Below, piece after piece: positions 3,641-52,472 of a stretch of 64,000 bases of DNA. Origin of the DNA: Gaeumannomyces sp. JS-464 (Eukaryota; Ascomycota; Sordariomycetes; Magnaporthales; Magnaporthaceae). Where the stretch lies: the NCBI GenBank assembly GCA_002197995.1, contig NGZR01000002.1, positions 1,364,001 through 1,428,000 of the forward strand, written 5' to 3'. Position 1 is the first letter of the stretch. Each line of letters opens with the position of its first letter. A program made the translations under genes and the position numbers. The notes beneath the pieces are model-generated. The model was not told where the DNA came from. It ran no database searches and saw only the letters and a program-made list of their open reading frames with translations.

Positions 3641-4430
3641 GCACCTGATAAAGGTGCGCGACGACAAGCACCCAAAGTGATTGTTAATTGTTCCTGGGCT
3701 ACTCTACTCGATCGCGGGCTAGGGCACGCGAGGGCCAAAATACCAGGGCCAGTGCATAGGTTTAAAGCTGTGGGGTAACAGTTGCCACCCACGTAACTCC
3801 AGGCCACCTTTTACAGCACCCGAACCGCTCCCTTAAAATCCATTAACGAGATCCCAAGGTTGGCAGCCTAACCGATCCTAACACCCGTAACTAACGCCCC
3901 CTAGGCAGCACTATCGCCCAGGACTACCAAACGCAACATACTATCCACGGAGCTAACCGAATCCCTCCGCCGACACCTGCTTTGGGAAAGGTTATAAAAG
4001 TCCTCCGTCACTTTTAAAAACGCGGCCAACCCGAAATAAAACCCCGATAAGGTGGTGATGGAAAAGGACAATAATATCGGTACTTTTAGCTACGATTAGT
4101 ACATTTTGGCCGCGACCCCGGTTACCACTTTAAGGGTTGGTAATTATAGTTGCTTTTAAACCTCCTACCGCCGGCAGCACTTTAACTAATAGTTCGGCAG
4201 GTTGTGCCGAAGGCAAGCATAATTGGAATGCAAAATACCCAGTTGTAAATAGTTTATTTTAAGTATTTGCATTTACATCGCCGGCCATTAAAGCTTACCA
4301 TGGCTCCCAAAAGTCCTCCAAGCTGTTTATTTAACACTTGCCCTTTACCACCTGCCCTTTACCACCACCAAAAAATGGCGGGCATGCTATTTTAATCCGA
4401 TAGCTGTTGTATTAAGTAGGAATATAAAGT
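3641..4430. other. No gene recognised
   Basis: The + strand up to 3700 may hold the end of the DUF3295-like frame. The - strand from 4430 down may hold the C-terminal tail of the zinc-finger gene. I see no open frame with recognisable features. The C-rich direct repeat GCCCTTTACCACC occurs twice near 4340. Confidence 0.25.
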
Positions 4431-4960
4431 CGTTATCGTCGTTATTAAACATATTTCCAGCGCCGTCGAAAGGGCGGACGACGCCGTTCGGGCCCACGTT
4501 GCCCACGCCGTTAACGTGGCTAAGCTTATCCTTATTACCTATAGCCATTTGCGCTGCCTAACTTTTAAAGTACGTATAAGGATGCGACAAATGGTTAACG
4601 CTAGTGGGGTTGCCACGATAAATCGAGCACTTTTGGAAATAGCGCTTTAAAATGCACGAAAACGTGTCGCGGTAAAGGACGCACATGTAAGGGCGGTTTC
4701 CCGTGTTTGTAAAAAATTATATAATAGTTAAAATATGCCCGAATGAAAGGGAACAAAATTTAGGGCTCGCGCGCCACTTGCGTCAAAGGTGCCTTTTAAA
4801 ATGCTTAGCATGGAAATACGTCTTGTTGCAGTGCGGGCACGGGAATTTGCCGTCGGCGTCCTTTTAGGGGTGTGGTTCTTAGCGCGACGCTACCAGCGAC
4901 CGGAGCTTAAGGCCGTCCAGGCGCACTCGGCAAAATACCGCGACGACGTTGCGAGCTAAC
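4430..4960 (-). pseudogene. C2H2 zinc-finger transcription factor, degraded
   Basis: Read on the minus strand, about 4860-4785 encodes KFPCPHCNKTYFHAKHFKRH, a canonical C-x2-C-x12-H-x3-H finger. After an intervening stretch of about 90 bp, possibly an intron, a second finger follows at about 4690-4600: YMCVLYRDTF then LKRYFQKCSIYRGNPT and VNHLSHP. The pair with the CSIRRGNPTG...HLSHPQAH tail matches a conserved ascomycete two-finger factor family. In finger two the second zinc Cys is Tyr (TGC to TAC) and the first His is Tyr (CAC to TAC), and an Arg in the tail is changed, so it could not bind zinc normally. The 5' end may extend into 5000-5570. The call is from motif recognition only. Confidence 0.75.
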
Positions 4961-6280
4961 AACGCGCGTCGGGAGGTCGGCCTCTTGCTAAAGGGTTTGC
5001 GGCTGGGGCATTAAAAGGCTTTGGGCGTAAGGAGATAAGACCTTAGCTCGCGGATAACCTCGTCGGCTGGTATAAGGATAAGCATTGGAAAAGCACGATG
5101 TTTAGGAGCAAATGCGGGAGTAATGCGCCGGAACGAGCCATAAAGGTCGAGGTTTGCGGGAGCATTAAAGCTGTGGTTAGGCAGCTTTGGTGGTACTGCT
5201 AGTACTGCGCCGGGAGAGATAGGTACTTGCTTATAGCGCTATTCGAGCCCGGAAGGGTAGGGTTTCGCGGAATGGGCTGGTAGCTTTATAAGGAGACACA
5301 AACTGTTGTGGTTTTACGGCGGTGCTGCGATATCGTCGTAACTGGAAATCAAAACGGCCGGGGGTAAGTTCGGTGCCGGAACACGGCGGCGGCCGTTACG
5401 GGCCAGCCTGGGCGCGGAATCACACGAAAACGCGCTTCGCGAACGCGTTAAACCAATTTGGCTTGGGCGATATCCGTAACAAACCTTTTTGGGCGCAGCG
5501 TCGGTCGCCACTATGCGAAATGGCGCGTCCACATAGTTGTTATAGTTAATTTCCATCCCTGCTTCCAAAATTATGCGATGCCGATAAGCCTTTCGTTCGG
5601 TGGCGTTTAAAACTGGATGCTAATGTTTGGATATAACGTGCGTGCTTGCCAATTAAACCCGCAGGCCTTTTTAAGGTCGAGGTGGATGCAACCACCATGC
5701 GCTAAGCACAATTACAACAAAAAAAGGCCGTATACCCGCTTATACCAGCTATTAAGCCGATAAGGAGGAGCGGTTTAACGGTCCATTACTGTTAAGGCGA
5801 ATGCGAGGTGGACATTTTACAGCTAACTTTTAAACGCAGCCTTATTACCATATGAAATGGCGCGTTTAAAAGGAGCAAACCGGCCGTGGCGCCGTCGATT
5901 AAAAATGGCTGGTGGAGTGGTTGTTTATGCAAATGGCGCCGAGGAGGCGCCGCCGCGTGGTTTATTATCCGTGCTAGTTTCCGTGGACCTTTGCGCTTAA
6001 GGATATAACATGTTAACCAAAGTTTTTAACAGGAACCGGTACTTCGGGATATGCTACGAAAGTTGGGTGGTTAGGGAACGCTGTTAGCAGTTCCTTTCGG
6101 GGAAGGTTTAAAAGGATTCCTAATGCATAAAGGTGCGGCACCTTTTCAGCTGCACGAAAGTACCGGCCAGGAAACGGCAACCATGTTACGCTTACCCCTT
6201 TAGGTAGCTAAAGCCAAATGCAACCCGTTAGCTAAAAAATAAAGTGCTTCCAACGTATGGAACCGTTTCGATCATTTAAG
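4961..6280. other. No confirmed gene; possible 5' end of the C2H2 gene
   Basis: Open stretches on both strands at 5314-5568 overlap each other and have no domain I recognise. The minus-strand one lies in the position expected for the N-terminal region of the zinc-finger gene. The remainder is rich in TTAA-type words with no readable frame. Confidence 0.25.
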
Positions 6281-47700: not shown

Positions 47701-48039
47701 GCCGGATAACCTTTTAAACTTGCCCTTAAGGAAAATAAACGTTTCCTAAAAACTGGAGGAATAACACCCGTTTTGATTTACAGCTTAATGCGACTGTTAA
47801 TCCGGCTATAACTAACGTGCTCGGCCGGTACTTAAGCGGCAGCCATAACACATTTTGTCCGTTTTAAATAATTTATATCCCATTAGAACTAATTCCTACC
47901 TTTTGGAAACGAGGCGGCTAAAAAAAAGCTCGGAAAGTTGCGTGGGCAATTAGTAGCTTATTAATAAAGATCGTACTTATATCCGTATAAAGACGCGAAC
48001 TTGCTGCATTAAATGAAAAATTATATATAATTGTACCAA
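47701..48039. other. Intergenic, nothing recognised
   Basis: AT-rich sequence between the bZIP frame and the 3' end of the WD40 array. Confidence 0.3.
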
Positions 48040-48700
48040 CGTTAACGGTTTGGAGGCAGGTGCCCGTCGCCGCGTCCTAAAGCTTAACAGTATTGTGGCC
48101 CGACGCCGACGCGAGCTGCCGGCCATCGCGCGAAAAGGCCACGGACATAACCTTACCGTTATGCCCTTCGAACGTCGCGACGCATGCGCCCGTTGCCGTG
48201 TCCTAAAGCTTGACGGTTTCGTCGGCCGACGCTAATGCGAGCTGCCGGCCGTCGCGCGAAAAGGCCACTAAGTTAACCGGATAGCTATGCCCTTCGAACG
48301 TCGCGACGCAGGCCCCCATCGCCGCGTCCCAAAGCTTAACGGTTTCGTCCGACGCCGACGCAACCTGCCGGCCGTCGCGCGAAAAAGCCACTAAGTTAAC
48401 CGAATAGCTATGCCCTTCGAGCGTTGCGACACATATGCCGGTTGCCGCGTCCTAAAATTTAACGGTTTTGTCGTCCGACGCCGACGCGAGCTGCCGGCCG
48501 TCGTGCGAAAAGGTTATTAAATTAACCGGATCGTAATGCCTTTTAAATGTCGCGACGCATTTGCCCGTTGCCGCGTCCCAAAGCTTAACAGTTCCGTCGT
48601 GCGACTCCGACGCGAGCTGGTGGTCGTCGGGTAAGAATACGACCGAGTTAACCGAATAAAAATGGCCTTTAAACGTCGCGAGATAAGCGCTCCAGTTTTC
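48040..48700 (-). repeat. WD40 repeat array, five near-identical 126-bp units
   Basis: Units of 42 codons repeat with period 126 bp (starts near 48554, 48428, 48302, 48176 and 48050 on the + coordinate). Each contains VAFSRDGRQLASAS, VKLWDAATGxCVATFEGH and VNLVAFS-like words. In at least three units the Trp of KLWD is a stop or mutated (CCTAAAGCTT on the + strand). High identity among units is typical of HET-E/HNWD receptors, in which repeats are exchanged to change specificity. Confidence 0.88.
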
Positions 48701-50489
48701 CTCCATTATCGGCTTATTAACCAGCCATATTAACTTTTCCTTTTTAAATAATTATCGTGTTAGGCTTTATGTAGGGTTAAATACAAGTGCAAAAGCGTAA
48801 ATCTGTAAAGGCGCATTTTTAATGGCAAAGCGATGTGATAAAACGAATCGCTGCATATCCTAAACTAAATAGCTTAAATAAAAGCCTTTTGTTATAGCTT
48901 AGGCCATTATTAGTATTATTTCTGCAAAATAATAACCTAAACGATAAAAACGGACCTGGAGTAGGCTTTGCAGCTTTTCCACCGCAAGGACTCCCTTCGG
49001 AATAGCTCGAGCAAAGCTTAGCGCCTTAAGCCAGTTAAAATACTTTTTGCGGAGGAAACCATCGACGTAACCGCCGTTTTGTAGCTTATTTGTGCTTTTT
49101 GCTTGCGCTTCGAAAGGTGATTAACCCAGTATATGCACGAGTACCGTGCTGGACTTAAGGGGTTTGGACTGGGCGGTATCGCATCGTTAACGGGGGTTCC
49201 GGGGTGTAACAGGCGATAAATATCACGTTGGAGTGTTCGAAATAGCAGCTGTAGCGATTTTAAAAAAAGGGCGTGGTGAACTCCTTCGATTGTGCAAGGA
49301 AAACCTTATGGAAGTCGGCGTTAAGCGAAGGGTTGCACAGGAAGTCCTTAGCTAACTGGTGGACGAAGTGTATGATACGGTTTTTAATAGCCAGAAAGGA
49401 CCCGCAAAACCCGACATAGTATTCCAGGGCATTGTTATCCAAAGGCTCGTCGAAAGGATTGTCGATAAAAAACCTTAGCTCCTTTAGCGTAAGAGGCTGG
49501 TATACCGTCGATGCGGTAAACAAAATCTGCAAACATAGGGTTACGTCGTCGGGATCTTCCAAGCCGCAAATGGTTTGCATCATCCGACCGCACAAAGCGT
49601 TTAGGCCAGGCGGGAAGCCGTGTAACGTTTTAGCGGCTTTAAAACTGGGGACGCCTTCCAGGCGGCGACAAACGAAAGCCACCCACAGGAACGTGTTTTT
49701 AGCATTAAATAGGAGGTATTTTGTAACTTGGGCGGTTGTTTGCGTGTTGTAATGCTTTCGCTTTGCTAACGCCTATACCTTGTTTTATACGTATAGCTAA
49801 ACGGCGGTGGATACGGAGGAGGCGTTCAGCTCGAGGCTGAGTGGGACTTTCTATTCGGCTTGTGCAAGCTTCTCCTCGATTTCGGGCCAGTTCCTGCTGG
49901 AAACGACCCACTTAGCACGGGACACGGCTAAGGCAAAAGCAATAAGGGCCAAAAGCTCGGAGCGACCAGCTTGGCACTCGTCGAGGGCGTTAACCAGCAA
50001 ATACGGGGATTGCAAAACGGGGTCGCCCAGGATGTCCAGAAAAATCTCGCGGACAGCGACCCAGGCATTAACGTCGTCGAAAAACCCCCTGCCTGCGTCG
50101 GTGTACCTCTTTTAAACGTGCGAAAGGAGAAACGGCTCCCGGTGGACGAGCATGTAGATTAAGCCGCGTAAAACTGCCGCAACGCTGTTAATACGCGTGT
50201 CGGTCGCTTAACAAAAGAAATAGGACAAAAGGCGGCCTTCGTTCTCTAACTCGTCGATAATGCCGCACAGCAGCATAGTTTTGCCTTTGCCGGGGTCCCC
50301 CTTAACCCATAGCAGCCTGTTTTGGTTGTCCTGCCGCCACTGGAGGAATTCGTCGTTGCCGAGGACCCACTAGTACACATCGTCCAACAGGCTTCCGTTA
50401 TCCCCTTTAATCCGTTCCTTGTCGTGTTTTGGGTTTATGGTCCGCAAAGCTGCGAGGCAGGCTGGGCGTTCGCCGGTTTAATGGGTTGT

Positions 50490-50549
50490 AACATTTCCCT
50501 ATTGCAAGGTGGCACCAGCACTTAATGTGATTTAACCGCTAAAGTAAGA
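50490..50549 (-). other. Amyloid-like signalling motif (R0-type) of the NLR
   Basis: Just before the NACHT-specific sequence the frame encodes SYFSG-ITLSAGATLQ-GNV, with stops at two positions that read Gln by C-to-T reversal. Spacing F-x-G-x-I, then A-x-L-x-x-G-N resembles HET-s-related amyloid motifs and matches both repeats in the neighbouring effector. The assignment is inference from pattern and position. Confidence 0.6.
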
Positions 50550-50739
50550 TCCTTGCTAAATAATTTGCGGGCTTTGTTCCCCTCGAAAAACAGTGCTTTC
50601 TAGTTTGTTAGCTTTTAAGCGCGTTTTTAAGTTGTCCTCGCCATTTTCGGCAAGGCGGCGCCGTTTTTCTTCTCCCGGTGGCCCAGCCTCCTGCTCCTCG
50701 GCTTTGCGCCGATTTCCAAATGTGGACATATCTTCCACG

Positions 50740-51616
50740 GCTTGTTAAATTGGTCGGTCGGGGTCGTATCGGGACGCGGAACGCCTTGATTGGAAATTGA
50801 AAAAATCGCTTGTAAGGATTTAACATGTGTTACGGCACGCGTGGGGTCACCCCACGCACGGGCCTCCAGGCACCACTAGATAAAGATTTCCTCCCAGGCG
50901 GGGCCTCCGGCCCCAACCTGCTTTGAATACCAATCTCCTTTGCCGCCATTTTCTTTAGCCCCTACCCGCTGTGACAATTAGCCACTTGCTAGGGAATAAA
51001 GGCTGCTGTAATTAACGCAGGTTGCTAGGAGACATACGCGCGTATTTTAAGGTATAAAGACGATAACTCTGTTAGTTGGCCGGTGTAAAAGGTTTTAGGC
51101 GTTGTTTGAACTTAGAAAAAGGCGAGGAAGGATAAGGAGCAACGTCCGGAAAGGGCAGCTGCGGGGCGCGGTGCTTTATCGGGCGAAAAGTTGGCCAAGC
51201 TGCGCTTAGCCCCTTTTTAGCGCCGTACAAATCTCAGCCCATTCGAAGCAGCGAAAAGTATGCTTAACACGCCCGGCAAACGCTAACCTGCCCAAAAAGC
51301 AAAACTGTGTGCACCTTAAATATGTACATCACAACGCGTAATTAAAAGGTATTTTGGATTGGGCTATTTTCTAGTACTGTACGCGTTCACACAGCCGACG
51401 TTGCGACTCCGAGCAAGGGCACCGTAACGTCGAGTTCCACACCGCGCTGCACGGGCCGCTGCCACTTTTGCATAAAAGTTTAACCGTGCTGCTTAACCCG
51501 GCTGCACTCGGCGTCGAGATGTGGTTAAGCAGGCAGAGAAATTAATAAGCACTGTTTCGGACGCTGTACAAAACCCGATTAAAGTTAACCCTTTAAAGGC
51601 CTCGCACGAACTACTA
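50740..51616. other. Intergenic between the effector and NLR genes
   Basis: About 880 bp without a recognised gene, including GC-rich words near 50850-50910. It would hold the NLR promoter. No element is singled out. Confidence 0.35.
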
Positions 51617-51673
51617 CTACTTAAGCTTATTTTCTTTTGCTCCGGCCTTATTTTTAACTCCCAATCCATCGAT

Positions 51674-51733
51674 TTTATTACCTTGCGCCAGTTTTGCGTC
51701 CGCGGTCCTTTCGATTTCTCCCTTAAACGTCGA
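51674..51733 (-). repeat. Amyloid-like repeat R2 of the effector
   Basis: Twenty codons with F3, G5, I7, A13, L15, Q17, G18 and N19 identical to the NLR motif at 50490-50549 when that motif's stops are read as Gln. Confidence 0.65.
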
Positions 51734-51772
51734 CCCTCCCTGCTCGGTATCCCCGTTAAGGATACCTTTAAT

Positions 51773-51832
51773 CTTATTACCCTGGTTTGCTAAAGCTTTG
51801 CCCCCGAGTTTAATTTTGCTACGAAATGTGAA
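51773..51832 (-). repeat. Amyloid-like repeat R1 of the effector
   Basis: Twenty codons sharing F3, I7, A13, Q17, G18 and N19 with R2 and with the NLR motif. Position 5 is Ser (AGC), one G-to-A step from Gly. No stop falls inside the repeat. Confidence 0.65.
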
Positions 51833-52472
51833 CCCCGTTTGCTTAACCCGAAAACGTGGGGACGGCGAACAGCTTCCGAGCTGGGTCCTTAGCGCGTGTT
51901 CGGCCCTGTAACGGCCGTTAGCAAAGTTTTTACACAATTTACACGGCCATACCTTAATTCGTCACCTGATTTCGTGCTGGTAACGTTTAGGCTTAAACTG
52001 GTGGTAGTGGCTTTGGCGACGGCAAAAGTGACGATTTTTTCCATGTCGATTCGGAGCGCTTGTTAATCCTCGGCATTTCCAAAAACGGCCATAAAAGTAA
52101 GGTGCTTCGTCGATTTTTGCGCGTTTACAAAGGGGACGTCCAGCTTGCGCGTTAAACAACCGCTTATTATAACCCACTGCTATAGCGCTCGATGCGACCG
52201 TTGGAATTTCGTTAGGATTTTTTAGCCTTGTTAATGTTGTTTAATATGGCGGCAAGGCAGGTTTTAATTTCGACGGCTTGTAATGCCCCGTTTTAATCGA
52301 TGTGCGCCGTAACGATTTCGAGTTCCTTTATTTGGCGCTCGTACTGCTGGAGTTTGTCCGGCCCGCCCCGGATTCGGGCACGAATGTTACTAAAACCCGA
52401 CGAGATCGTAATAGCGTAGGCCAGCAGTTGGGCCATTGCCGCGAAGGCGCCGAGCGCTTCCAGTCCCGACAT

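Follow-up and report, generated by a model that had tools for sequence, protein, structure and literature searches.

Two broken genes in the window, i.e. the whole 64,000-nucleotide stretch that was analysed (C12:1364001-1428000, from a genome of 53 Mb in 34 contigs; the gene content suggests a filamentous fungus), are likely relics of a pair of amyloid signalling genes resembling HET-S/NWD2, a system with a HET-s-related amyloid motif (HRAM) found in Podospora and other filamentous fungi. What was seen directly comprises the two-plus-one arrangement of the motifs, their HRAM register, NACHT and WD40 domains, the order of the two genes and their decay (stops, frame changes and RIP-like DNA). 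Mutations have broken both genes while the matching HET-s-type motifs remain, so that the locus looks like the fossil of a system of known type. As in HET-S/NWD2, two motifs occur at the effector C-terminus and one before the NACHT domain of an adjacent WD40 receptor; the motif register (established via a HET-S homologue of this genome) and a helical effector N-terminus (in a structural model) are likewise common to both. The window pair differs by being missed by profile PF11558, by an N-terminus that is not HeLo and by the broken state of both genes. Of the initial annotation, the decayed effector/NLR pair with its two motifs and one was retained, while the proposal of a new motif class was not (see below).

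The effector gene ended in two 20-residue HRAM-like motifs on the minus strand, R1 (51770..51829) and R2 (51671..51730, beginning 33 codons after R1), both in the same stop-free frame of 114 codons. This repetition, already reported in the initial annotation, was clear: the best internal pair of 21-mers in the 114-residue tail scored 39, which none of 500 shuffles reached (mean 17.7, maximum 34). The third HRAM-like motif, R0 (50487..50546, minus strand), is located in the receptor frame and ends 38 codons ahead of the NPHP3_N match, in agreement with the single copy originally placed before NACHT on the same strand. It contains one TAA and one TAG. The three motifs aligned without gaps and had residues F, I, A, G and N in common. 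A shared Gln had been claimed as well; it is genuine in R1 and R2, but R0 carries a TAG codon at that place, and in all scores stops were counted as neutral, not as Gln. Effector and receptor genes are adjacent on the same (minus) strand, as first described, with an interval of about 890 bp (effector end at 51618 to receptor ATG at 50729) instead of the 880 bp then given.

Within the 120 codons counted as the receptor N-terminus, R0 scored 51 against R1 and R2 together, a value reached by 2 of 2000 shuffles. It was also the top non-self match to R1 and R2 among the 125,490 six-frame 21-mers of the window, the runner-up scoring 44. Because the motif segments had originally been chosen by eye in the earlier annotation, and because of this runner-up, the location of R0 weighs more than its score. 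A rival explanation is that two unrelated decayed genes happen to be neighbours, R0 resembles the repeats by chance and the effector repeat serves some other function. The modest lead of R0 over the next segment of the window, its two stops and the fact that it is left uncovered by the other receptor matches listed all speak for this reading. Yet the best non-self segment of all 125,490 falls in the approximately 120 codons preceding NACHT, in frame and on the same strand, and R0 responded to motifs of HET-S type as well: with these as query it ranked 19th of 118,659 window segments, and its own alignment to them was equalled by 121 of 200,000 column permutations. We consider chance neighbourhood improbable.

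Pfam's two HET-s motif profiles, PF11558 and PF17108, did not match the window, be it in hmmscan against Pfam-A (where filtering discards most matches above E 0.1) or in genome searches, that with PF17108 being weak (best of 4 matches at E 1.5, with matches in 4 of 14 control genomes as well). The genome search with PF11558 yielded one match above cut-off (60.9 bits, C1:6325158-6325334) and one sub-threshold match (19.6 bits, C31:1380851). The former sits in a HET-S homologue (locus L031 of C1) with HeLo at 140.1 bits and HET-s_218-289 at 60.2 bits. Like the window effector, this homologue displays two C-terminal HRAM repeats, and these align without gaps to the window motifs; it differs by the two Pfam domains just mentioned and by its neighbour, an NB-ARC/TPR-like gene (by eye) on the other strand. 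Among the six best segments of L031, no convincing HRAM-like one was located near that neighbour.

Three comparison motifs from two loci were available, namely the two L031 repeats and one motif from the 19.6-bit sub-threshold match, the register of which was set on its G-N. Ungapped alignment of the window motifs to these three gave a score of 111, reached by 3 of 200,000 column permutations (mean -129); with single comparison motifs the corresponding counts were 31, 1689 and 50 of 200,000. Every other shift of register between -9 and +11, 20 in all, gave a negative score. When the three comparison motifs served as query, R1 and R2 ranked 5th and 15th of the 118,659 window segments; since four other segments stood above R1, single ranks are not proof of class. 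In the reverse search, the window motifs placed the first HET-S repeat 1st of 18,500 segments, the weak match 2nd of 17,932 and the second HET-S repeat 17th of 18,500, and their score against the HET-S tail was reached by 17 of 1000 shuffles. Repeat spacing was 33 residues in the window vs 37 in L031. One further match to the HET-S-type motifs, at window position 1360 (score 59), was discarded as chance-like, no HET-S-like gene being seen in the three frames read there by eye.

Another view would place the motif outside HRAM, in the sigma or PP class or in one that is truly new, its likeness to HRAM being confined to the G-N end. It is consistent with the failure of both Pfam profiles and with the SesA-like effector N-terminus described below, as SesA is usually tied to the sigma motif; moreover, when the G-N columns were omitted, the permutation result became weaker, with 568 of 200,000 reaching the score. 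Yet the 18 remaining positions still agreed in register better than most permutations, and the tails of three SesA effectors of this genome, the expected sigma bearers, did not match the window motifs (411, 682 and 914 of 1000 shuffles reached their scores). We regard a different class as unlikely. The window motif is most likely a divergent HRAM, a label based on the register shared with HET-S motifs and on the silence of Pfam's two HET-s motif profiles. The new motif class suggested in the initial annotation found no support, since register and key positions are common to the HET-S homologue and to the sub-threshold HET-s match of the same genome. One consequence is that Pfam's HET-s motif profiles can overlook divergent HRAM-like pairs.

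The effector, initially described as a gene of 285 codons, indeed spans 52472-51618 but does not form a single open frame. It passes through three frames interrupted by TAA stops, all on the minus strand: a hydrophobic, helical and SesA-like N-terminal part in frame 0 (52209..52472, 2 TAA in 88 codons), a middle part in frame 2 (51976..52158, from about 52158, with one TAA) whose DNA aligns with a paralogous locus on C1 (L003), and the C-terminal part in frame 1 that contains R1 and R2 (51620..51961). The N-terminal part displayed 83% protein identity over 87 residues with the L003 paralogue, which is stop-free in this region. Over 85 compared codons, substitutions between window and L003 fell mostly on third positions (24, against 10 first and 2 second positions), and 16 of the 29 differing codons were synonymous. 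From this codon-position bias and synonymous share, it follows that the effector N-terminal part very likely derives from a protein-coding gene formerly under constraint, a point in favour of the pair reading.

No Pfam match was obtained for this N-terminal part up to E 10. Modelled from an alignment that included the window row, the L003 protein consisted of three long helices (pLDDT 65.4); Foldseek comparison of this model with the PDB returned nothing at E <= 0.001, and two PDB sequence searches returned no match at E <= 10. The AlphaFold2 model of the R1-R2 tail was uninformative on its fold (pLDDT 46.7). As to domain affiliation, hmmscan of the effector gave no SesA match, and the 14 matches of PF17107 (SesA) in the genome did not include it. 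The L003 protein, however, could be aligned with two of three SesA proteins of the genome, starting at its own first residue, reached E 3e-4 in BLASTP with one of them (locus L026) and, when compared by hhalign with a profile built from these three proteins, gave a probability of 40 and an E-value of 3e-4; its scores against the three proteins were reached by 8, 41 and 0 of 1000 shuffles. These values hint at an N-terminus that is SesA-like, not SesA. HeLo was not matched by Pfam in the effector, and with the HeLo domain of L031 the L003 paralogue gave a score that 610 of 1000 shuffles reached. The HeLo N-terminus of HET-S in the strict sense was not recovered in the effector.

The receptor gene begins with an N-terminus, a NACHT domain and the start of a winged helix (49263..50729, minus strand, frame 0), with 11 stops in 489 codons (6 TAG and 5 TAA). 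Over this region, Pfam reported NPHP3_N at 109.4 bits, NACHT at 29.7 bits and GPIID_WHD at 18.3 bits, the last below its cut-off. WD40 repeats follow at 48021..48706 (minus strand) in a frame other than that of the NACHT part, with 168.6 bits in five stretches matched by Pfam WD40. A genome search with the first 144 receptor residues scored seven candidates, of which six matches were listed: the window itself, a weak match on C23 (residues 6-52) and four matches at three loci beginning at residue 88 or later, past R0 (residues 62-81). None of the non-window matches listed spans R0.

In the intact ancestor, the WD40 repeats would have sensed a ligand and the receptor would have oligomerised through NACHT. 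The single R0 of each receptor subunit would then have stacked into a beta-solenoid template, and this template would have imposed its fold on the R1-R2 tail of the effector encoded alongside; by analogy with HET-S/NWD2, the converted effector would free its membrane-active helical N-terminal domain, leading to cell death. At present, the two genes lie in RIP-like DNA and are interrupted by stop codons and changes of frame, neither retains a working open reading frame and, as read, the locus cannot be functional. The matched motifs nevertheless allow recognition of such a pair even when it is broken.

Elevated TpA/ApT ratios are a signature of RIP, and the ratio exceeded 1.0 in 31 of the 32 blocks of 2 kb in the window. 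The six-frame stops of the whole window (5895 in total, made up of 4088 TAA, 1480 TAG and 327 TGA) fit this signature; as TGA is rare window-wide, its absence among the stops of the two genes is uninformative. In L003, ratios were 0.29-0.91 in the first seven blocks of 1 kb, where the paralogous effector and receptor piece are located, and 1.65 or more in the last three. Over the 85 codons compared, seven differences of RIP type ran from L003 to the window and three the opposite way.

L003, the one close paralogue encountered, lacks both motif segments. Its effector homology covers window positions 52640-51837 and stops 7 bases short of R1, while its receptor homology (50473-50272) starts 13 bases beyond R0. 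The locus is itself broken and frameshifted (by eye) and its order is reversed compared to the window, the receptor piece being upstream of the effector. A replacement motif pair was not found in L003, the best pair scoring 29 against 23-31 for eight codon shuffles. Genome searches with the motif regions revealed no copy outside the window, which was also the sole candidate for the repeat region at E up to 10. These absences, like the lack of HeLo and of any match to PF11558 or PF17108, count against the HET-S/NWD2 reading.

One may tentatively propose, though we rather doubt it, that a death domain of SesA-like rather than HeLo type made use of a divergent subfamily of HRAM that the current Pfam HET-s profiles overlook, and that effector and receptor motif segments were lost or exchanged together as modules, given that the homology of L003 to either gene breaks off no more than 15 bases from the motifs. 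The absence of motifs from L003 would be compatible with deletion, rearrangement or module exchange alike. If the modular reading were true, effector and receptor motifs would change together, and coevolution in prion-type signalling would become testable in related genomes.

A related arrangement, which favours the pair reading, was encountered at L026 (C31:108000-117500): the frame of a SesA effector (Pfam SesA 95 bits) is open there, and a related receptor (NACHT-WD40 by eye) follows downstream on the same strand. It resembles the window pair by this organization and by an effector N-terminus similar to that of the window (through L003, with the BLASTP value given above), and differs by its Pfam SesA score and by a tail without match to the window motif. 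A decayed-looking SesA effector (PF17107 match) upstream of a NACHT-type receptor (by eye and by the receptor search) was also recorded at C31:1800000-1809000.

Further observations concerned the remaining loci and the DNA between the two genes. In L031, HeLo and HET-s_218-289 occupy two frames (positions 4650-5578 of this C1 locus), owing to an intron or a frameshift, and the HET-S homologue is divergent from the NB-ARC/TPR-like gene, not from a NACHT-WD40 receptor. The sub-threshold HET-s motif match of 19.6 bits belongs to what looks by eye like a HET-S-like remnant (positions 4000-4460 of locus L032, on C31). Within the window, neither Rfam (0 matches) nor ARAGORN (0 genes) reported anything. 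The interval between the effector and receptor genes contains a dispersed element of about 150 bases (50828-50977), which accounted for 17 of 20 genome matches, whole or partial, at 79-91% identity; a check of 50780-51060 for inverted repeats was negative. Window positions 51155-51451 displayed 77% identity to C23:5831162-5831443.
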